Source: Deefgea salmonis
GTDB taxonomy: Bacteria; Pseudomonadota; Gammaproteobacteria; Burkholderiales; Chitinibacteraceae
DNA length: 64,000 nucleotides
NCBI RefSeq assembly: GCF_020531905.1
Contig: NZ_JAJAWG010000001.1
Location: 62,001-126,000 of the forward strand
Direction of reading: 5' to 3'
Below the pieces are notes generated by a model. It was not told the origin of the DNA. It ran no database searches and saw nothing but the letters and a program-made list of their open reading frames with translations. The translations under genes and the position numbers were made by a program. Below, piece after piece: positions 2 through 10,523 of the stretch. Numbering within the stretch: position 1 is the first letter of the stretch; the number at the start of each line of letters is the position of its first letter.

Positions 2-1294
2 TTTGGCGGTTATAGCGGCAATATTAATTTGGGTTTACAAACCAGTTATGTGCGCAACGCTGGGCATTTGCAGATTCAACATCAGGATTATTTTTTATAT
101 GGCAGCGGCAATCCGGCGGCGTATGGCATTAAAAATTACGCCGAGTTGATTGAAGTGCTACGCAACGATCCAGAACTCAAGCCGCTGCTCACCGTGGTAA
201 CGCCAACGCTCAGCCTAGGGGGTATTGCCGGCAACTTCAGTGCGGGCGTGTCTCGCACGGTGATCGGTACCGGGGTATGGGTGAGCGATCAAAATAAAAT
301 GCAGCTGTGGAATGAGTTTGATTTTCCCGGTGAAGCCAAAACACTGGCCTTAACTGGCACGGCGGGCAATGCGGTGGTGATTGGCAATGGCGTGGCGCGG
401 GTGTTGCAATTATGCGCGCCGTTGCAGCTCAAAAACTGTCCAGCCAGCCAAGCCAAAGTCAATGCTGGCCCGGCGGCGCCCGATGATATTAACGCCTTGT
501 CGCAGCAAGCCCATGCTGAAAATCCAAAGCCGCAATCCAGCGCCTTGCCGCAAATTGAACTATTAGCCGCCAATGTGCACGGCGCGCCCAATGTGGCGAC
601 TTTGGCGGTGGTGAAAGCGCAAGGCTTTGGAATAAAAGAGCTGGATGACATTTCAATGCTGTTGCATTTGCCGCAAGCGCAGCAATTGGTCTACGGCCAA
701 GAAACGCCGCAAGTCACGGCGATTGTGTTGCAGCTGAAACACAGCGCTGATTTAGCTAAAGCGCAAGCGCGGATCAATACGCTATTGGGCACTACGCTGA
801 AAGATCAGCCGTTGGCGGTGTATGACTTTGCCACGCTTCATCCGTCTTTTGGCCAAATTACCGGCATGTTTACCGCGATTTTTAGTTTTATTTCGCTGCT
901 GATCGGGGCGATTGTGCTGTTTACCGTTGGCAATACCATGAGCATGGCGGTGATGGAGCGCACGGTGGAGATCGGCACGCTGCGGGCAATGGGCGTGCGG
1001 CGCAATGGCATTTGGCGCATGTTTGTCTGCGAGGGTGCTTTGCTGGGTTTAGTGGGGGCGGTTGTTGGGATCGTGCTGGCGCTGTTGTTGGCATGGGGGA
1101 TCAATCATGCCGGATTAACTTGGTTGCCGCCGGGCAATATTGAGCCGGTGCCGCTCACGGTGCGGGTGTGGGGTGAAACGCGGATGCTGCTTGGCACGGG
1201 ATTGATGTTGGTGGTGTTGGCGGCCATTTCGGCGTGGTGGCCAGCGCGCCGTGCGGCCAGAATGAATATTGTTGATGCTTTGCGCCATGTGTAA
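2..1294 (+). CDS. ABC transporter permease, FtsX/LolE-MacB type (5' end outside window)
   Basis: The reading frame is open from the first bases of the window, so the N-terminus lies upstream. What remains is a long periplasmic domain (about the first 290 residues) followed by three hydrophobic segments near the C-terminus. The last part carries the FtsX-family signature after the first of these segments (VEIGTLRAMGVRR) and ends in the typical ARRAARMNIVDALRH tail. These permeases couple cytoplasmic ATP hydrolysis to work on lipoproteins or other substrates in the periplasm rather than to simple solute import. The downstream LolA-like protein and outer-membrane barrel suggest an envelope or lipoprotein trafficking module. 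The ATPase partner is not in the window and is presumably upstream. Family is confident; substrate unknown. Confidence 0.85.
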   Translation, partial: FGGYSGNINLGLQTSYVRNAGHLQIQHQDYFLYGSGNPAAYGIKNYAELIEVLRNDPELKPLLTVVTPTLSLGGIAGNFSAGVSRTVIGTGVWVSDQNKMQLWNEFDFPGEAKTLALTGTAGNAVVIGNGVARVLQLCAPLQLKNCPASQAKVNAGPAAPDDINALSQQAHAENPKPQSSALPQIELLAANVHGAPNVATLAVVKAQGFGIKELDDISMLLHLPQAQQLVYGQETPQVTAIVLQLKHSADLAKAQARINTLLGTTLKDQPLAVYDFATLHPSFGQITGMFTAIFSFISLLIGAIVLFTVGNTMSMAVMERTVEIGTLRAMGVRRNGIWRMFVCEGALLGLVGAVVGIVLALLLAWGINHAGLTWLPPGNIEPVPLTVRVWGETRMLLGTGLMLVVLAAISAWWPARRAARMNIVDALRHV

Positions 1295-1339
1295 GCCGCC
1301 ATGGGTAAATCGTGATGTGTAAATACCAAAAAGGAGAGA

Positions 1340-1528
1340 ATGATGCGACACAAGTATTTTTCTGCGCTGTTATTGGTTGCGCTCGGGATCTTGTTTTTGG
1401 CGCATAACTTTGGCTTTTTACCCAACTTTGGCCAAATGTGGGCGTTGTGGTGGCCCTTGGTGCTGATTATTGTTGGGGTGAATTTATTGTTTCGCCGCCC
1501 GAAAGACAAGGATAAAAAAGATGATTAA
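1340..1528 (+). CDS. Small membrane protein, LiaI/LiaF-type transmembrane region
   Basis: This 62-residue protein has two hydrophobic stretches (about residues 7-22 and 34-51) separated by a short aromatic, Phe/Trp-rich turn, and a highly charged lysine/aspartate tail. This layout resembles the LiaI/LiaF-like transmembrane region family (DUF5668). A good Shine-Dalgarno (GGAGAG) sits just upstream of two adjacent ATGs at 1340 and 1343. Its end overlaps the start of the LolA-like gene by 8 bases, so the two are probably translationally coupled. It may be an accessory or stress-sensing subunit of the neighbouring ABC system, which is inference. Confidence 0.7.
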   Translation: MMRHKYFSALLLVALGILFLAHNFGFLPNFGQMWALWWPLVLIIVGVNLLFRRPKDKDKKDD

Positions 1529-2381
1529 AGCGATGCAAGCCGCCTTGGTATTGATGGCCAATCCGTTTGGGGCGCGCGCAATTAATACGGTAGGTCAGCA
1601 ATCAAGCAAAACACGCTACCGGGTATTGAGTGCAAGTCTATTGCTGGCCTGCTGCGCGACCGTGGGCGCAGCACCCAGCGCGCAGCAAATCTTAAGCGCC
1701 AGCGACGCGATCCGTAATCCTGAGCAACCCTTTGGCGTCACCAGCACCTTGATTGAATATCGCAATGGCAAGCAAGTCGAAACCAGCACCTTGGCGGTGT
1801 ATGCGCGCGCCGATGCGCAAAGTGGGCAGTTTCGCAATTTAATTCGCTTTGTCGCGCCGCAGCGCGATGCCGGTAAATTGCTGCTGAAAAATGGCAATGA
1901 TTTATGGCTATATGATCCATCCAGCAAAGCCAGTATTCGCATTTCGCCGCAGCAGCGTTTGCTGGGCCAAGCGGCCAATGGCGACGTGGTGACGGTGAAT
2001 TTGGCGGTGGATTACACCGCCAGCTTGGTCGGTGAAGAAACAATTGCCGATGGCGAGCGACAAAATCGCGATACGTATTTGCTCAAACTCAATGCCAAAA
2101 CCCCGGATGTGACGTATCACCGCATCGATTACTGGATTGATCGCCATAATAATCAGCCAGTGAAAGCCAAGTTTTATTCCAGCAGCGAGCATTTATTAAA
2201 AACGGCGTATTACCGCCGCTTTCAAAAGCAGCTTGGCGTGTCGCGCCCGACCGAAACGGTGATTATTGATGGGCTCGATCCGCAGTGGGTGACGGTGCTG
2301 CGTAGCAGTGATTTTGCCTTTCGCGATGTGCCCGAGAGCTGGTTGCAGCGGGATTTTTTGCCCCGCTTTAAGGCCGAATGA
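1521..2381 (+). CDS. LolA-like outer membrane lipoprotein-sorting protein
   Basis: A 286-residue exported protein. The mature part, from about residue 50, matches the LolA-like outer-membrane lipoprotein-sorting family: successive beta strands with the segment KLLLKNGNDLWLYDPSSK and a long C-terminal half that includes DYWIDRHNNQPVKAKFY. The hydrophobic signal segment (about residues 33-50, ending near VGAAPSA) is preceded by an unusually long hydrophilic and basic N-region. A later start, for example the ATG at 1533, is therefore possible. The gene overlaps its neighbours on both sides (8 and 4 bases), so it belongs to one operon with the ABC permease. Likely role: periplasmic carrier of a lipidated or hydrophobic substrate taken from the permease; substrate not deducible. 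Confidence 0.75.
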   Translation: MIKAMQAALVLMANPFGARAINTVGQQSSKTRYRVLSASLLLACCATVGAAPSAQQILSASDAIRNPEQPFGVTSTLIEYRNGKQVETSTLAVYARADAQSGQFRNLIRFVAPQRDAGKLLLKNGNDLWLYDPSSKASIRISPQQRLLGQAANGDVVTVNLAVDYTASLVGEETIADGERQNRDTYLLKLNAKTPDVTYHRIDYWIDRHNNQPVKAKFYSSSEHLLKTAYYRRFQKQLGVSRPTETVIIDGLDPQWVTVLRSSDFAFRDVPESWLQRDFLPRFKAE

Positions 2382-3715
2382 TGGCGCACTGGCATGGGGT
2401 GAGCGACACTCGCGTGATGCCGCCAGTCATCCGCATTGATCGCAAGATTGGGTGGCTAAATCCACGGCTGGGCGTGGGTTTGGCCGCTTGGCTGATTGCT
2501 GGATTGGCGAGTACGGCGAGCTGGGCGAGCGATGCCGATGCACTGGCTTTAGCCGATCAAGCGCTAGAGCCAGCGGCAGCCAGATCGGACTGGCAGATTT
2601 TTACTGAGGGTATGCTCGGGCAGGTCAATCAGCGTGCGCCTTTGGACGATATACGCATCAGTCGTGCCTCGGTGGATGTGTTGCTCGATACGGCGATCAA
2701 TCCCGATTGGCGATTGACGCTGGCCAACCGCGTTGATTGGCTGGGGCAAGATGGGCAGTATGAGGTGGTGAATACCTTTAAAGAAGGCTATGTCAGCTGG
2801 CAGGCGCAGCCCAATGCTGCGCTCGATCTGGGGCGAATTAATCTGCGCAATGGCGTCGCTTTGGGCTACAACCCGACTGATTACTTTAAAGTCGGCGCTT
2901 TGCGCTCGGTGGTGTCGATTGCGCCAGCTAGTTTGCGCGAAAACCGCCTCGGCGTGGGCATGTTGCGCGGGCAATGGGTGTGGGAGGGCGGTGCAGTCAA
3001 TGCCGTGTTTGCGCCCAAATTGGCTAATCGGCGGCAAAACGCAGCGTTTTCGCCCGATTGGGGTGCGAGTAATTCGGTATCGCGCTATTTGTTGACCAGT
3101 AGCGTGCAAGTGTTGCCGGGCTTTGCGCCGCAATTTTTACTGTTGGGTGAGCAAGGGCAGTCGCCGCAGTTGGGGATGAATGCGTCGATTTTGGCCGGTG
3201 ACGCGTTAACCCTCTACGCCGAATACAGTGGCGGGCGCAGCGCCGCCTTGTTGCTCGCTGCGCCCGCCTTGTTGCCTGCTGCACCCGTATCGTGGCATTC
3301 GCGCTTGGCCGCTGGCGGCACGCATACCTTTGCCAATAATTTATCGCTGAGTTTGGAATACCACTACGATGGCGAGGCGCTCAATCAAAGCCAATGGCGC
3401 GCTTTGTGGCTTAATCCTGCCGATTATTGGGCGTATCGCAGTGCGGTGTTTCATGCGCAAAGCCTGCCTACGCAACAGGCGGCAATGAGTTTTGTGTCGT
3501 GGCGCGATGCGGGTGTGAAGGCGCTGGATTTAAATTGGATGCTGCGGCGCGACTTAGTTGATCAAAGTTGGCAAAGCTGGCTAGAAGCGCGCTACCATTT
3601 CGAGCGCATCGATTGGGCGCTGCAATGGCAGTATCAAAACGGCGCACCGGGCAGTCAATACGGCGCGTTGCCACAACGGCATAGCCTACAAGCTGTGGTG
3701 AAATACTTTTTTTGA
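2378..3715 (+). CDS. Predicted outer-membrane beta-barrel protein of the Lol-like module
   Basis: A 445-residue protein with a hydrophobic export segment around residues 28-50 (ending near ASTASWASDA) and many alternating aromatic strands through the mature part. It ends in two phenylalanines, the usual outer-membrane insertion signature. The start overlaps the LolA-like stop by 4 bases (ATGA). No catalytic motif was recognised. By position it would be the outer-membrane component of the upstream ABC/LolA-like module. The N-region before the signal is long and basic, and an internal start such as the ATG at 2417 may be the real one. Confidence 0.65.
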   Translation: MMAHWHGVSDTRVMPPVIRIDRKIGWLNPRLGVGLAAWLIAGLASTASWASDADALALADQALEPAAARSDWQIFTEGMLGQVNQRAPLDDIRISRASVDVLLDTAINPDWRLTLANRVDWLGQDGQYEVVNTFKEGYVSWQAQPNAALDLGRINLRNGVALGYNPTDYFKVGALRSVVSIAPASLRENRLGVGMLRGQWVWEGGAVNAVFAPKLANRRQNAAFSPDWGASNSVSRYLLTSSVQVLPGFAPQFLLLGEQGQSPQLGMNASILAGDALTLYAEYSGGRSAALLLAAPALLPAAPVSWHSRLAAGGTHTFANNLSLSLEYHYDGEALNQSQWRALWLNPADYWAYRSAVFHAQSLPTQQAAMSFVSWRDAGVKALDLNWMLRRDLVDQSWQSWLEARYHFERIDWALQWQYQNGAPGSQYGALPQRHSLQAVVKYFF

Positions 3716-3726
3716 GTGACGGATGG

Positions 3727-4770
3727 ATGCAGCCACAACACAAAACAATGACGTGCCGCTACCAAAAGGATTTGCCGATTTTACTCTTGGTGAACGCACT
3801 GATTGCGGTGCTATTGACCTTGATCGACGAGCGAACTGCGCTGGTCGATAATCTGGTGATTTCCAACTGTATTGGTTTTTGTATTTGGTCGTGCAATTGG
3901 GCGGTGGATCGCATTACGGGTGAGGCTTGGTCGCGGCCTTGGCGGATGCTGGTGAGTACGCCGGTGGGTTTGTTGGCCGGCTTTACGCTGGCCGCGGCCT
4001 TGGGCGCGTCAGATGTGATTGCGATTTTGCTGCATACGCCCAGTCAAGCTTGGCGCTGGGTGGCGATTGCCGCTTTAATTTCAGGTTTTGCCAGTGCTTT
4101 TTTTTGGCTGTTGTTTCGCGCCCAGCGTGATCGGGCTGAGTTAGAAGTGCAGCGTCGGCACGCCGCCGAGGCGCAGCAAGCGCAAACCGCCGCGCAATTG
4201 GCGATGCTGCAAGCGCAAATTGAGCCGCATTTTTTATTTAATACGCTGGCCAATTTACACAGCCTGATTGCGCGTGACCCCGCTTTGGCGCAAACCCTGC
4301 TCGAGCATCTGAATGATTATTTGCGCGCCAGTCTTAAGCGCACGCGGCAATCGAGCTGCAGTCTGGCGCAAGAACTCGATTTGGTGGGCGCGCTATTGGC
4401 GATTAATCAGATTCGTTTGGGGGCGCGGTTGAGCTATCAAATTCGCGTGCCGGCCACTTTACGCGGCGCTCAATTGCCACCGTTACTATTGCAACCCTTG
4501 GTGGAAAACGCCTTGCAACATGGCATTGAGCCGGCCATCGCCGGTGGCGTGGTTGAGATTGAAGCCGAGCAAATTGGCACGCAATTGTGCTTGCGAGTGA
4601 TCGATAGTGGTTTGGGTTTAAATCTAAATGCACCGAGCCAAAGCGGTATCGGTTTGGCTAATGTGCGCGACAGGTTGATGTATTTGTATGGCGGTCAAGC
4701 TACACTCAGTGTTGCGAGCAATACCCCTTGTGGCGTGGTGGCCGAGCTGCGGATTCCTTTTGCTGAGTAA
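3727..4770 (+). CDS. Sensor histidine kinase, LytS/AlgZ family
   Basis: An N-terminal block of about four hydrophobic segments is followed by a short Gln/Ala-rich coiled coil and a His_kinase (PF06580) domain. The phosphoacceptor box QIEPHFLFNTLANLHSLI carries its histidine at about residue 168. The ATPase part has the N-box LVENALQHG, DSGLGL and GIGLANVRDRL. A TTG at 3712 overlapping the previous stop would give five extra residues; the ATG at 3727 is chosen. It lies directly behind the envelope operon and 76 bases ahead of the LytTR regulator, so it is almost certainly that regulator's kinase and probably reports on the upstream envelope module. Confidence 0.85.
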   Translation: MQPQHKTMTCRYQKDLPILLLVNALIAVLLTLIDERTALVDNLVISNCIGFCIWSCNWAVDRITGEAWSRPWRMLVSTPVGLLAGFTLAAALGASDVIAILLHTPSQAWRWVAIAALISGFASAFFWLLFRAQRDRAELEVQRRHAAEAQQAQTAAQLAMLQAQIEPHFLFNTLANLHSLIARDPALAQTLLEHLNDYLRASLKRTRQSSCSLAQELDLVGALLAINQIRLGARLSYQIRVPATLRGAQLPPLLLQPLVENALQHGIEPAIAGGVVEIEAEQIGTQLCLRVIDSGLGLNLNAPSQSGIGLANVRDRLMYLYGGQATLSVASNTPCGVVAELRIPFAE

Positions 4771-4846
4771 TTCGGGCTTGGTGGGTTTTTAGATGCCGTC
4801 CCACGCCATCCTAATGTAGGCGCACGAACTGAGGTCAATTTTAACG

Positions 4847-5581
4847 ATGCCAACTGCCCTAATTGCCGATGACGAGCCGCTATTGATGGCGGCGTTTGCC
4901 AGTCGCCTTGCTGTCGTTTGGCCGCAATTGCAAATTGTCGCGCAGGCCAAAAATGGCGTTGAAGCGGTGGCGCTACTGAGCCAATGGCAGCCCGATTTTG
5001 CTTTTTTGGATATTCGTATGCCGGGACTCAGTGGCTTGCAAGTTGCTGCCACTTGGCGCGATACGCGGGTGATTTTTGTCACCGCGTATGACGAATACGC
5101 CGTGGCCGCCTTTGAGCAATCGGCGGTGGATTATTTATTAAAACCAGTCAGCGAAGCGCGGCTGGCGCAATGCGTGCTGCGCTTGCAGCGCGAAGCCAAA
5201 CCGAGTGTCGATTGGAACCAACTCAGTCGTGAACTAATCGCACCCGCGCCGCCGAGCTATTTGCAATGGCTCACTGCCAGCCTAGGCGACAGCACCCGGC
5301 TGATTGCGGTGGATGAGGTGCGCTATTTTCAGGCCACCGATAAATACACCGAAGTGGTGACCGACGGTGGGCGGTTCTTGATTCGCACGTCGCTCAAAGA
5401 CTTATTGCCGCAACTCAATCCGCAGTATTTTGCCCAAATTCACCGCAGTTATTTGGTGAGTTTGCCCGCCATTGCCAAAATCGAAAAAGACCTACTGGGC
5501 CGCCAGCAAATCTATCTAAAAAACAATTTCGCCATCTTGCCGCTCAGCCGCAGCCACGCCGCACAATTTAAACAAATGTAG
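4847..5581 (+). CDS. LytTR-family response regulator (AlgR/LytR type)
   Basis: A 244-residue two-domain regulator. The receiver domain (about 1-120) has the acidic pair at D8/D9, the phosphoacceptor D55 in FLDIRMPG, the T79 region and K99 in LLKP. The C-terminal LytTR DNA-binding domain (about 140-240) includes FQATDKYTEVVT and IHRSYLVSL. It is the cognate partner of the kinase gene just upstream. LytTR regulators bind pairs of short direct repeats; no such pair was identified with confidence here. It probably controls the upstream envelope genes, which is inference from position. Confidence 0.88.
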   Translation: MPTALIADDEPLLMAAFASRLAVVWPQLQIVAQAKNGVEAVALLSQWQPDFAFLDIRMPGLSGLQVAATWRDTRVIFVTAYDEYAVAAFEQSAVDYLLKPVSEARLAQCVLRLQREAKPSVDWNQLSRELIAPAPPSYLQWLTASLGDSTRLIAVDEVRYFQATDKYTEVVTDGGRFLIRTSLKDLLPQLNPQYFAQIHRSYLVSLPAIAKIEKDLLGRQQIYLKNNFAILPLSRSHAAQFKQM

Positions 5582-7116: not shown

Positions 7117-9108
7117 TTATTTGATCTCGGCCATGGTTTTGGTGAGTGTTGCATTGCTGTCATCGCCATCGAGCGCCCAGCTAAAGCTACCGCGTAGGCC
7201 TTGCGCTTTTACGTATTCGTTTTTTAAACGAATGGTGGTGACGTCGTCGTAGCTCCACCAGTCGCCAGTGCTGGTATACAGCGACAGTTGCTTGGTGACA
7301 GGATGATATTTACGAATACCCGCAACGTCTTTGAGTGCTTTGTAGTCGCCATAGCCCGCTTCGGTTTGAACGCCCACTTTAGCTGCAGCGCGGGTTTTCT
7401 TTTGGTACAGGCCATCGTTGATATTGGCGACGCCACCAAAACCGCGACCGTAATACGGAATGCCCAAGGTGATTTTGTCGCGTGGCATGCCATTGGCGAT
7501 TAATTTATTCAGCGCATCGTTGATGTTGTAGTTACGGGCAACGCCAACAGTTGGATCGGCTGGATCGGCATACAGATGCGAATGGAAGTTACTGGTTTCA
7601 TCCCAGTCGCCATGGAAGTCATAGGTCATGACATTGACCCAGTCCATTGATTTGCTGTATTGCGCTGGCTCGGTTTGGTCGATTTTTTCGCTGCCGGCAC
7701 CAATGGCAGCGGTGAGGTAGTAGTGTTTATTGTTTTGCGCCACGCCATAAGCGTCTAATTGCTTGCGGAACTCAGCCATCAGCAAAGTGAAGTTCTTTTT
7801 GTCGTTGACCGTATCGACGACATTGCTGCCAATGCCTTGCACGCCGGGGTATTCCCAGTCGATATCAATCCCATCAAAGATACCCGCTGCTGCTGCGAGC
7901 CCACCTGCTGGGTCGCCGCCTGATTTTTTGAGGTTGCCCTTGAGGTAAACATCAATACATGAGGCAACCAGCGCTTTGCGATTGGCATCGGTAGCCGCAG
8001 CAGTTGAGAAATACCGTGACCAAGTCCAGCCGCCCAGAGAAATAAATATTTTTAAGTTCGGGTTTTTGGCTTTGAGTTTTTTGAGCTGATTAAAGTTGCC
8101 CTTGAGTTTGTTTTCCCACACATCGGCAACGCCATCGACTGAATCTTTGGCGGCGTAATCCATTTGATAGTCGGCCCAAGCATCGCCACCATCGCCATTG
8201 GGGTTGTTGTCGTTGGCTTTATTGATGCCGCTATCGCACTTGATTGAACCGTCGGCTTGTTTGTAGACATTACCAAACGCGTAGTTAATAAAAGTGAGTT
8301 TGGCGGCCGCGCCGCTGTCTTGCACCGCTTTGGCATAAAACGCGCTGTCGTACACTCCCCATTGTGTGAAGTAAGAGCCAACTTCACGTTGCCCAATTGG
8401 ATTGGGGCTAACGGTTGGTGTTGGGGTGACGGTTGGGGTGACGGTTGGGGTGACGGTTGGGGTGACGGTTGGGGTGACGGTTGGGGTGACGGTTGGCGTG
8501 ACGGTTGGCGTGACGGTTGGCGTGGCTGTTGGGGTGACGGTTGGAGTGACGGTTGGGGTGGCTGTTGGGGTGACGGTTGGGGTGACGGTTGGAGTGACGG
8601 TTGGAGTGACGGTTGGCGTGGCTGTTGGGGTAACGGTTGGAGTGACGGTTGGGATTGGGGTTACAGTTGGAGTTGGGGTGGCGTCGCTTGTACCGCAAGC
8701 GCCAAGGTCTTGCCATACATCGTTACTGCCTGGTGCATTGCCTTGCGTCCACCATTTGGCTTTGTAATTGTGGTTGTTGTAAGTCACTAGATTGCCGCCG
8801 GTATAAACCGTGGATGCATTCCAAATGGCAATGGTGCAGCTGTTTGGTGATGTGCTAGTGCTTGGGGTTGCGCTTGGACTGGTGCTGGGGGCGGGGCTGC
8901 TGGTGCTCGCAATCAGCTCCCATGGACCCCAAGTGTCGGCGCCAGGCGTATTGCCTTGCGTCCACCATTTGGCTTTGTAATCTTTGCCAGAGTAAGTAAC
9001 AACGGCAGCCGCTGAATAAGCCGTGCTGCTGTTCCAAGCGGAGGCCGCAATGGCGTTGACCGATGGAATGCTTAATGCAGCCGCAATGACTGCGAGTCGA
9101 AAATTCAT
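7117..9108 (-). CDS. Secreted chitinase, GH18 with two N-terminal chitin-binding domains
   Basis: This 663-residue enzyme has a signal peptide (about 1-22), two CBM5/12-type chitin-binding modules (about 24-66 and 92-137, each with the YKAKWWTQGN core), a long Thr/Pro/Val linker (about 143-236) and a GH18 catalytic domain (about 241-663). The catalytic signature DGIDIDWE places the general acid at E419, with D412, D415 and D417 intact; the substrate strand SLGGW and the YDFHGDWD segment are also present. It hydrolyses beta-1,4 links of chitin outside the cell. A strong ribosome site (AGAGGA) precedes the ATG. It stands alone between two terminators, so it is probably regulated separately. Confidence 0.95.
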   Translation of the reverse strand: MNFRLAVIAAALSIPSVNAIAASAWNSSTAYSAAAVVTYSGKDYKAKWWTQGNTPGADTWGPWELIASTSSPAPSTSPSATPSTSTSPNSCTIAIWNASTVYTGGNLVTYNNHNYKAKWWTQGNAPGSNDVWQDLGACGTSDATPTPTVTPIPTVTPTVTPTATPTVTPTVTPTVTPTVTPTATPTVTPTVTPTATPTVTPTVTPTVTPTVTPTVTPTVTPTVTPTVTPTPTVSPNPIGQREVGSYFTQWGVYDSAFYAKAVQDSGAAAKLTFINYAFGNVYKQADGSIKCDSGINKANDNNPNGDGGDAWADYQMDYAAKDSVDGVADVWENKLKGNFNQLKKLKAKNPNLKIFISLGGWTWSRYFSTAAATDANRKALVASCIDVYLKGNLKKSGGDPAGGLAAAAGIFDGIDIDWEYPGVQGIGSNVVDTVNDKKNFTLLMAEFRKQLDAYGVAQNNKHYYLTAAIGAGSEKIDQTEPAQYSKSMDWVNVMTYDFHGDWDETSNFHSHLYADPADPTVGVARNYNINDALNKLIANGMPRDKITLGIPYYGRGFGGVANINDGLYQKKTRAAAKVGVQTEAGYGDYKALKDVAGIRKYHPVTKQLSLYTSTGDWWSYDDVTTIRLKNEYVKAQGLRGSFSWALDGDDSNATLTKTMAEIK
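8412..8683 (-). repeat. Tandem 12-base repeat encoding the Pro-Thr-Val-Thr linker of the chitinase
   Basis: About 20 imperfect copies of a 12-base unit (GGGGTGACGGTT on the plus strand) encode PTVT/PTAT tetrapeptides. Because the unit is a multiple of three, gain or loss of copies would change linker length without a frameshift. On the other strand the array gives an artefactual Gly/Trp/Asp-rich open frame that should not be annotated. Confidence 0.9.
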
Positions 9109-9428
9109 TGTATTGTCCTCTCATCCTATTTGGGGTGAATGCTAATGCGCTGACATCATGCTTAGCATTTCGTATTAGTCAGCTTGTTTTAAAGTTACGC
9201 TTGCTGACTTGAGAGCAGTGTTGTTGATCTGGGAATGGCTTGTCAAATTTAATTGGCAGGGTGTTTTATTGTTTAACATCAGTTAATTGCTGGGATTTTT
9301 AGCCTGTGATTTTGGCGCTAAAAACCATGTGGTGGGGCGAGCTGATCCATCAGGGATTGAATGCAAAATAAAAAAACGCAGCCCATTGCGAGCTGCGTTG
9401 TTGGTTTGATTTACATGCCACAGTCGAG
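9109..9428. other. Intergenic region: chitinase promoter region and terminator of the PLP enzyme gene
   Basis: No gene is seen in these 320 bases. They hold the chitinase leader on the minus strand and, at the far end, the terminator of the next gene. An inverted pair GCTGAC/GTCAGC (9150-9155 and 9178-9183) encloses smaller GCTAA/TTAGC repeats and could be an operator for the chitinase gene. No convincing -35/-10 pair was identified. Confidence 0.5.
9371..9399 (-). terminator. Rho-independent terminator behind the PLP enzyme gene
   Basis: AACGCAGC and GCTGCGTT form an 8-base-pair stem with a 9-base loop. On the minus strand the stem is followed by a run of Ts (the A run at 9371-9376), 30 bases after the stop of the upstream minus-strand gene. 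Confidence 0.8.
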
Positions 9429-10523
9429 TTAACTTTTATCCGCGCGCTGCAAGTCGCTCAGTGCGCCCGCTTGCTCGATTTTGGCGCTGAGGTCAGCCAG
9501 CTCTTGCTCAATATCGATGCCGTGTTGACTGAGCCATTGTGGATTGTAGTAAGAATGCGCGTAGCGATCACCGCTATCGCACAACACGCTGACAATACTG
9601 CCCGCTTCGCCACGCGCTTGCATTTGGTGGGCCAGTGCTAACACGCCGATCCAGTTGCAACCGGTCGATCCGCCAACACGGCGCCCCAGATAATTCGATA
9701 ACCAATGTGTTGCCGCCAAGCTCATCCGGTCGGGCACTTTAAACATGGTATCAATCACGTGCGGCATAAATGACGCTTCAACACGCGGGCGGCCAATGCC
9801 TTCGATTTTAGAGCCTTGCTGCAAGGTATGGTCTTTGCGTCCGCTGCAGAAAGCATCAAAAAACACCGAGTTTTCTGGGTCAACGCAAGCAATTTGCGTG
9901 GCATAACGGCGATAGCGCACAAAGCGGCCCAAGGTGGCGCTAGTGCCGCCAGTGCCCGCGCTGGCAACGATCCAGCGTGGAATTGGGTGACGCTCTAAGC
10001 TCATCTGCGCAAAAATCGATTCGGCGATATTGTTATTCGCACGCCAATCGGTAGCCCGCTCGGCATAGGTAAATTGGTCGAGAAAGTGCCCTTGCGTTTC
10101 ATGAGCCAGACGCTGCGATTCGGCAATCAATTGCGTTGGGTCGGCTACTAAGTGGCAGCGGCCACCATAAAAAGTAATCGCCGCGATTTTTTCGGGGCTG
10201 GTGCTGGCCGGCATCACCGCAATAAACGGCAATTTTAGCAAACGAGCGAAATACGCTTCAGAAACGGCGGTCGATCCGCTCGACGCTTCGATTACCGTGC
10301 TACCGGCATGCAGCCAGCCATTGGTGAGCGCATACAAAAACAAAGAGCGCGCTAAACGATGTTTTAGGCTGCCGGTAGGGTGGCTCGATTCGTCTTTGAG
10401 GTAGAAATCAATATCGGGGTAGGCGGCCAAATGAATCGGGATTAAATGGGTATCGGCTGAGCGATTAAAATCCGCTTCAATGGTGCGGATGGCTTGGTGT
10501 ACCCAATCGCGATTGCTGGTCAT
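9429..10523 (-). CDS. PLP-dependent cysteine synthase family protein
   Basis: A 364-residue fold-type II PLP enzyme. The lysine expected to hold PLP is K54 in GSLKHR, the phosphate-side loop is [10 protein letters not shown] (81-90), and a second glycine-rich loop is [12 protein letters not shown]. It is longer than CysK or CysM and resembles the stand-alone L-cysteine desulfhydrase/cysteine synthase-like branch rather than the biosynthetic enzymes. It therefore probably acts on cysteine or a related beta-substituted alanine; direction and substrate are uncertain. The ATG at 10523 is chosen because a clear GAGG lies 7-8 bases upstream; a TTG four codons earlier overlaps that ribosome site. 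It is monocistronic. Confidence 0.8.

Follow-up and report, generated by a model that had tools for sequence, protein, structure and literature searches.

Gene Content of the Locus

The window analysed here, a stretch of 64,000 nucleotides (contig 11, positions 62001–126000) from the 3.26 Mb genome of the freshwater bacterium Deefgea salmonis (Chitinibacteraceae), opens within an operon that joins genes resembling the Lol lipoprotein-sorting machinery to a two-component system. In order, the operon codes for an ATP-binding cassette (ABC) ATPase, a LolE-fold permease, a 62-aa LiaI/LiaF-TM protein, a LolA-like carrier, a predicted outer-membrane β-barrel, a PF06580 kinase and a LytTR regulator, all on the forward strand. 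Its true start is the ATPase gene (232 aa; PF00005, 110.5 bits), lying 0.8 kb upstream of the window at L002:9205–9903 (window coordinates are L002 positions minus 10000). The permease gene (L002:9900–11294, 464 aa) straddles the boundary, with 34 N-terminal residues upstream and residues 35–464 read from position 2 to 1294 (FtsX PF02687, 63.5 bits). It is followed by the genes for the two-helix LiaI/LiaF-TM protein (1340–1528; two hydropathy peaks; PF22570, 45.9 bits, and PF18917, 42.4 bits, cut-off 27), the periplasmic carrier (1521–2381; PF17131, 132.7 bits), the barrel (2378–3715), the membrane histidine kinase (3727–4770; PF06580, 76.2 bits, and HATPase_c, 30.2 bits) and the response regulator (4847–5581; Response_reg, 70.2 bits, and the DNA-binding LytTR PF04397, 80.4 bits). 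Domains were called by Pfam scan at E ≤ 0.001 and with NCBIfam models; the kinase start (ATG 3727) is our choice within an open frame listed from 3712. A tandem candidate regulator site was found upstream of the ATPase gene, at L002:9109–9139.

An earlier note on this sequence had read six genes from the permease to the regulator. All six are open and in the order it gave, with its FtsX, LiaI-like, LolA-like and LytTR families recovered by Pfam; the block is real, but its limits cut into the permease and missed the ATPase gene. The overlapping packing that it described holds for the LiaI-like/LolA-like (8 bp) and LolA-like/barrel (4 bp) junctions, and the ATPase and permease genes also overlap by 4 bp. 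The regulator is less closely set in this genome, 76 bp from the kinase, a spacing that ranges from −4 to +88 bp across relatives. Gaps of 45 bp and 11 bp separate the permease from the LiaI-like gene and the barrel from the kinase (start at 3727), respectively. Terminator-like sites on both strands of L002:8700–16000 were at chance level (16, vs 12.2 ± 3.7 in shuffled sequences).

Permease, Carrier and Barrel

The AlphaFold2 model of the window part of the permease (alignment of 62 sequences; predicted local distance difference test (pLDDT) 85.4) found its best structural match in LolE (9xro_E; VIA Z 19.5, root mean square deviation 5.7 Å, 328 residues), followed by LolC, with further matches to the LolE periplasmic domain (5udf, Z 17.6) and MacB (5nik, Z 13.2), in agreement with the FtsX/LolE type first proposed. 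Four hydropathy peaks were seen, and all 62 aligned sequences share two cysteines, at window-frame positions 138 and 146. The carrier, correctly recognised from the outset as LolA-like, has a solved homologue in 3BUU (NE2245, LolA superfamily; E 5.5e-37); in the Pfam scan it matched PF17131 LolA_like alone and not PF03548 LolA. For the barrel, the AlphaFold2 model (alignment of 80 sequences; pLDDT 88.1, predicted template modelling score 0.83) agrees with the barrel predicted earlier, with 18 strands by DSSP and an OprD/AlgE-type fold, its matches being a BenF-like porin of the OprD family (VIA Z 23.2, 3.3 Å, 305 residues), AlgE (22.1), chitoporin (21.7) and Wzi (20.3). These fold-match lists contain neither Omp85 nor TolC proteins, an absence that for Omp85 does not exclude membership. 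The barrel gene had no Pfam match at E ≤ 0.001, the 80 barrel members gave scattered weak matches alone (best 0.0014, Porin_O_P), and a barrel profile retrieved nothing credible from the PDB sequences, so the family assignment rests on the fold model. The barrel shares 85% and 57% identity with those of the Deefgea loci L080 and L081.

The housekeeping Lol proteins are encoded elsewhere in the same genome. A single permease exceeded the lolCE cut-off, identifying the canonical LolF (521 bits; the operon's permease reached 73 bits in that search), and one strong PF03548 match (168 bits) identified the canonical LolA, the members of PF03548 lying at C20:76070 and C11:755457; PF17131 occurs once in the genome, in the operon. 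The second LolA relative is weak (35.2 bits; G000:C11:755457–755936) and far from the operon. Because the canonical LolF and LolA sit elsewhere, the module formed by the ATPase, permease, carrier and barrel is additional to housekeeping lipoprotein sorting, and its identification with the housekeeping Lol system was rejected. It resembles LolCDE/LolF–LolA in having a separate ATPase, a LolE-fold permease and a LolA-superfamily carrier, but differs from it in the sequence families of its permease and carrier, in the 18-strand barrel of its operon and in having a two-component system of its own. A MacAB–TolC system was also rejected, as neither a MacA adaptor nor a TolC-type duct gene is present from the ATPase to the regulator, and the barrel is modelled as an 18-strand, porin-like one.

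One explanation for such a gene set is a dedicated lipoprotein-sorting route, in which the barrel would be the exit or insertion gate for a single lipoprotein or a small number of them bound for the outer membrane or cell surface. The permease, nearest to LolE, and the carrier, a member of the LolA superfamily, would fit it, and the same proposal, with cargo likewise not identified, is made in the account of the Borrelia BBJ23-29 cluster (PMC13078400). However, the carrier does not match LolA proper, the permease is far under the cut-off of the lolCE model (TIGR02212; 76.4 bits for the window part, cut-off 362.45), the barrel resembles porins and polysaccharide exporters, and no extra gene family travels with the four genes in most loci, lipoboxes not having been screened. 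We thus regard this explanation as unlikely. By gene content, the BBJ23-29 cluster is nonetheless the closest published analogue: as described there, it combines a type VII ABC transporter, proposed to be a homodimer, a LolA-like protein and an outer-membrane barrel (PMC13078400). The Borrelia barrel is of the Omp85 type and is accompanied by two tetratricopeptide repeat (TPR) proteins, whereas in Deefgea the barrel is of the OprD/AlgE type, no TPR protein is found in the operon and a kinase/regulator pair is present.

Conservation of the Four-Gene Core

Conservation was followed in 43 genomes of the family Chitinibacteraceae. A strong relative of the LolA-like carrier (E below 1e-100) occurs in 32 of them (34 at E ≤ 0.001), and a relative of the regulator (E ≤ 1e-30) in 37. 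All 32 genomes with the strong carrier relative also have the regulator, compared with 5 of the 11 others (one-sided p 7.6e-5, relatedness ignored); these five are G020, G001, G039, G040 and G042, the remaining six having neither gene. The barrel was sought in the 32 genomes with a strong carrier relative, and the gene maps place ATPase, permease, LolA-like and barrel genes together in every one of the 32 module loci. LolA-like, barrel, kinase and regulator genes are contiguous in 28 of the 32, a contiguity that exceeds chance in the family; the exceptions are three Andreprevotia genomes, in which the pair is on another contig (L074–L076), and L057, at a contig end.

A search with the barrel profile retained 80 of 263 loci, 17 from the family and 63 from outside it. 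The LolA-like gene adjoins the barrel gene in 80/80, the permease adjoins the LolA-like gene in 71/80, and the ATPase adjoins the permease in 69/80 and shares one frame with it in two more (L090 and L092, a possible MacB-like fusion). Nine loci have no adjacent permease, namely six of Rhodoferax type (five of them named Rhodoferax), two at contig ends and L149, where the permease is 1.8 kb away. Outside the family the kinase/regulator pair was found within about 1 kb in 2/63 loci (Burkholderia L111 and L129), at least 3 kb of downstream sequence being available in 55 of the 63, and four more (L093, L133, L134 and L147) have a related kinase over 3 kb away. Since the four genes mostly occur without the pair outside the family, the conserved core is ATPase–permease–LolA-like–barrel, with the kinase, the regulator and the LiaI-like gene as additions. 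The second lipoprotein- or lipid-sorting route of the earlier note therefore stands as a second Lol-like trans-envelope module apart from housekeeping Lol, though its six genes are not one fixed unit.

Some loci depart from the common layout. In Chitinilyticum L052, a major facilitator superfamily transporter gene (8578–9765) separates the LolA-like gene from the barrel gene. Chitiniphilus L065 and L066 carry a paralogous ABC–LolA set in whose vicinity neither a barrel or kinase gene nor a tandem site was found, and L067 has no clean ABC–LolA set, its ATPase being on the opposite strand.

The Small Membrane Protein

The LiaI-like mini membrane protein, confirmed here by two Pfam families, is less constant. 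Relatives were found in 14/32 module loci (Deefgea, Chitinibacter and Chitinilyticum) and in a transporter-less Deefgea locus, L069; the gene was not called in the other 18, of which 11 gaps were also searched for small frames. Among 12 gaps examined between permease and LolA-like genes, one (L050) holds a LiaI-like gene (25.0 bits, counted in the 14) and four (L054, L056, L058 and L060) hold a DUF2306-type membrane protein, Pfam-confirmed in L054 and L058. Depending on the genus, the slot is thus occupied by a LiaI-like gene, by a DUF2306 protein or is empty.

Locus L069, the single observed case of transporter loss at this site, lacks all four core genes and keeps the LiaI-like, kinase and regulator genes together behind the same YdjM-type gene that lies, divergently oriented, upstream of the operon in our locus. 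In other loci holding the pair alone or away from the module, the kinase is preceded by a 2TM protein (61.2 bits, L074) or by a DUF6622-like protein (L070–L073; the L071 copy, which was tested, scored 17.4 bits, below the family cut-off), and no small membrane protein was seen before it in L075 and L076. Because the LiaI-like protein stays with the kinase in L069 and others precede the kinase in these loci, the small proteins probably act in the service of the kinase. That the LiaI-like protein, called a subunit in the earlier note, is an essential part of the transporter was rejected: it is present here, but its gene was not called in 18 of the 32 module loci, its slot being filled otherwise or empty in other genera, and it is kept without the transporter in L069.

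In L069 (8966–14082), a TetR-like gene and a resistance-nodulation-division (RND) efflux-like pair, as judged from their translations, are present between the kinase/regulator genes and a phosphatidylserine-synthase-like gene. In our locus, such a phospholipase D-type gene (NCBIfam PRK09428, 670.9 bits) lies downstream of the operon in convergent orientation. Further along the window (7117–9108, minus strand), the translation reads as a chitinase-like protein with N-terminal chitin-binding-type repeats and a long TPTV-repeat linker.

LiaI/LiaF-TM domains are components of envelope-stress systems (PMC11237479). As in the PSP/Lia systems treated in that source, the small transmembrane domain stands here beside a two-component system; unlike them, no PspA/LiaH or Toastrack domain was found by Pfam among the proteins of the operon, and the neighbour is a LolA/barrel export module. 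Such domains would suit a second explanation, namely that the module pumps out hydrophobic or membrane-active compounds, or protects the cell from them, and is comparable with AmeABCD/DUF1302–DUF1329 or with Bce-type ABC/two-component modules. The layout of AmeABCD, serving apolar compounds, and of the DUF1302–DUF1329–RND set likewise comprises an outer-membrane protein, a LolA-superfamily periplasmic protein and an inner-membrane pump, although as reported the pump there is of the RND type, against ABC here, and other Pfam families supply the barrel and the periplasmic protein (PMC6394551). Type VII ABC transporters working together with a membrane kinase, such as BceAB–BceS, are also described (PMC12646458). 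Yet the permease shows four hydropathy peaks, compared with the ten helices of the BceAB fold (PMC12646458), and since 5/43 genomes have the pair but no strong LolA-like relative, the transporter is unlikely to be an obligatory sensor. A pump of this kind appears rather unlikely.

The Kinase and Its Regulator

The kinase has a hydrophobic N-terminal region of about 130 aa, with three peaks over 1.5 in residues 1–130 (by hydropathy), and HFLFN and LQPLVENA boxes. The domain 5TM-5TMR_LYT, which marks LytS-family kinases (PMC5552118), was not matched (PF07694) either in this kinase (Pfam, E ≤ 0.001) or in its L069 relative (E ≤ 0.01). Since the kinase combines PF06580 and HATPase_c with a hydrophobic N-terminus and gave no match to PF07694, it is not LytS proper, and the LytS-type assignment of the earlier note should read AlgZ-like; its LytTR regulator was correctly named, the nearest NCBIfam model being BtsR (136.7 bits, below the cut-off of 246). 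A PF06580 kinase with a membrane N-terminus beside a LytTR regulator is the AlgZ/AlgR architecture, and by this architecture and by the site described below we name the pair AlgZ/AlgR-like.

In Pseudomonas, AlgZ is reported as an unorthodox kinase with four predicted helices (PMC4064291), and shares with the Deefgea kinase the hydrophobic N-terminal region and the LytTR partner. The core of the boxes found here, C..TT(C/T)(A/G)TC, agrees with the AlgR core CCGTTCGTC, which according to the same source is not always arranged in regular repeats (PMC4064291), whereas the boxes here are strict tandems with a 20-bp period. YpdA/YpdB of E. coli offers a second comparison, as LytTR regulators are described to bind 9–11 bp repeats with 11–13 bp spacers and YpdB uses the direct repeat of GGCATTTCAT (PMC4847170), near the box GGCATTTCAA of this genome; YpdA, however, has 5TM-5TMR_LYT and GAF domains (PMC4847170, PMC5552118), neither of which was matched in our kinase. 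A 9-bp core with 11-bp spacing would thus fit the site patterns of both YpdB and AlgR.

A Tandem Candidate Operator

The candidate site consists of two 11-bp boxes in direct repeat with a 20-bp period, resembling AlgR boxes. The box, RCRNTTYATCS, was drawn up from the promoters of 12 Deefgea/Chitinibacter loci and of L069; the consensus box is GCATTTTATCG, with C/T and A/G variants. The tandem site was detected at p ≤ 0.01 (200 dinucleotide shuffles each) in the ATPase promoters of all 32 family module loci, 20 of which are an independent test of the box, because their genera were not used to draw it up. Among 17 periods compared (14–30), 20 was the single best in 30/32 promoters. By the 17-box matrix, the start of box 1 falls at −93 to −97 in 23 loci and, one period away, at −113 to −118 in 7; in the remaining two it falls at −171 and −198. 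This matrix was trained on Deefgea/Chitinibacter sites and a 35-box matrix also on further family genera, so that both score their training genera by construction. Across 35 family loci, 75 period-20 matches exceeded 12 bits; 50, with overlapping pairs scored separately, fall in the 220 bp ahead of the ATPase, and 25 lie outside this interval. Periods of 17, 18, 19, 21, 22 and 23 gave 16, 31, 16, 40, 25 and 15 matches, respectively.

The site is kept in the Andreprevotia genomes with the regulator on another contig, at −96 in L054 and L055 and at −198 in L056. Of the 8 family genomes in which the regulator is separate from the module or the module is missing, 6 also show it clearly before the regulator's own operon. 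In L069 it stands at −118 relative to the LiaI-like gene, in L070–L073 at about −102 to −126 relative to the DUF6622-like gene, and in L074 at −96 relative to the 2TM gene (start codons of these small genes being our choice). It was not found before the ATPase genes of four paralogous or distant loci (L065–L068) or before two paralogous two-component operons (L078 and L079), nor on the regulator contig of G033 (L077), in the 268 bases available upstream. Because the site is present before the module also in genomes with an unlinked regulator, and before the regulator's own operon as well, the pair very probably controls the module.

The contrary explanation, that kinase and regulator are chance neighbours mainly controlling other genes, with the module a minor target or none, draws on the five genomes keeping the pair without the module, on its separate location in Andreprevotia and on the non-family modules, most of which have neither adjacent pair nor site. 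The site in all 32 family module promoters, at nearly fixed distance in 30 and also where the pair is unlinked, speaks against it, as does the finding that every family genome with the module also has the regulator, making chance association very unlikely. The earlier note had named the pair belonging to another operon as counting against a joint system; this is partly so, as the pair exists alone in 5/43 genomes, yet the candidate site precedes the module in three unlinked genomes, in one at an unusual distance. That the two-component system is the module's own stands in so far as it is linked and very probably regulatory here, and fails outside the family, where it is mostly absent near the core.

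In Chitinibacter, the gene directly upstream of the ABC operon (L043:11984, minus strand; L044:4140, plus strand) has a strong tandem site of its own (24.7 bits) and may for this reason share the regulon; its product, 299 aa in L044, appears exported by the look of its N-terminus.

A Probable Second Lol-Like Route under AlgZ/AlgR-Like Control

We consider it probable that the operon encodes an additional, Lol-like route for export across the envelope, controlled by an AlgZ/AlgR-like pair of its own. The combination of a LolE-fold permease, a LolA-superfamily carrier and a barrel suggests extraction, ferrying and outer-membrane delivery. The permease, possibly a homodimer, would extract a fatty molecule from the inner membrane, the carrier would ferry it outwards to the 18-strand barrel, and the barrel would insert or export it at the outer membrane; extraction of membrane molecules, or the driving of periplasmic work, is described for type VII ABC transporters (PMC12646458). 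An amphipathic cargo such as a glycolipid is attractive, because the barrel is porin- and AlgE-like. The kinase would sense a membrane signal, with the LiaI-like small membrane protein as a probable accessory, and the LytTR regulator would bind the two AlgR-box-like elements, 20 bp apart and some 96 (or 116) bp ahead of the start codon of the ATPase gene, switching on, rather than repressing, the whole operon and itself.

Several observations weigh against this proposal, besides the low lolCE score of the permease. The models cover the permease (window part) and the barrel singly, and no constant neighbour, gene or enzyme, naming the cargo was found across the loci. The six Rhodoferax-type loci (L117, L120, L125, L127, L130 and L139) keep the LolA-like and barrel genes without ABC genes, so the two can serve something else; both loci whose neighbours were checked (L117 and L120) have exosortase-A-associated hydrolases, a ligase and a decarboxylase nearby, surroundings suggestive of a link to surface polysaccharide export. 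As for regulation, the kinase-operon site is weak in Andreprevotia L075 and L076, scoring 9.0 and 6.0 bits by the 17-box matrix and 10.8 and 11.8 bits (p 0.007) by the 35-box one. Outside the family (300 single-base shuffles), 12/52 module promoters have the site at p < 0.01 and 40/52 do not, so the control is not universal. The regulator was searched for in 48 non-family genomes (49 loci; L091 and L154, both site-negative, and L159 were left out), and the six with the best copies (266–279 bits) are all site-positive (hypergeometric 7.5e-5, relatedness ignored), but five of them are Trinickia and one Burkholderia, so the association is close to two independent cases. In the six regulator loci of these Trinickia and Burkholderia genomes, a match lies at the 5′ end of the kinase frame in two (L166 and L171) and only elsewhere in L169, and three have none; among 12 other non-family regulator loci, a match lies some 0.4 kb ahead of the kinase in L178 and L180 and elsewhere in L174 and L176, with none in the remaining eight. 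By sequence pattern, the AlgR core is part of the boxes GCCGTTCGTCG found in Trinickia L105 and Burkholderia L111.

More tentatively, and at somewhat less than even likelihood, the module may represent an undescribed betaproteobacterial exporter family for a surface lipid or glycolipid, made of a type VII ABC transporter, a PF17131 carrier and an AlgE/OprD-type barrel. It would have an AlgZ/AlgR-like switch, a tandem operator of 20-bp period that follows the module even with the regulator unlinked, and an exchangeable slot for a small membrane protein (LiaI-like or DUF2306) tuning kinase or transporter. Literature searches aimed at the module, with subscription papers and preprints outside their scope, gave no paper recognised as describing it among those listed; what is new here is the tandem site of 20-bp period before the module.

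To our knowledge, how lipids other than lipopolysaccharide reach the outer membrane or the surface is largely open. A four-gene set that would provide extraction, ferry and outer-membrane gate, apart from housekeeping Lol and with a readable operator, would be an accessible subject of study in environmental bacteria. The regulator site would tell how the module is switched, and the module may extend the range of purposes that LolA-superfamily carriers and AlgR-type control can serve.

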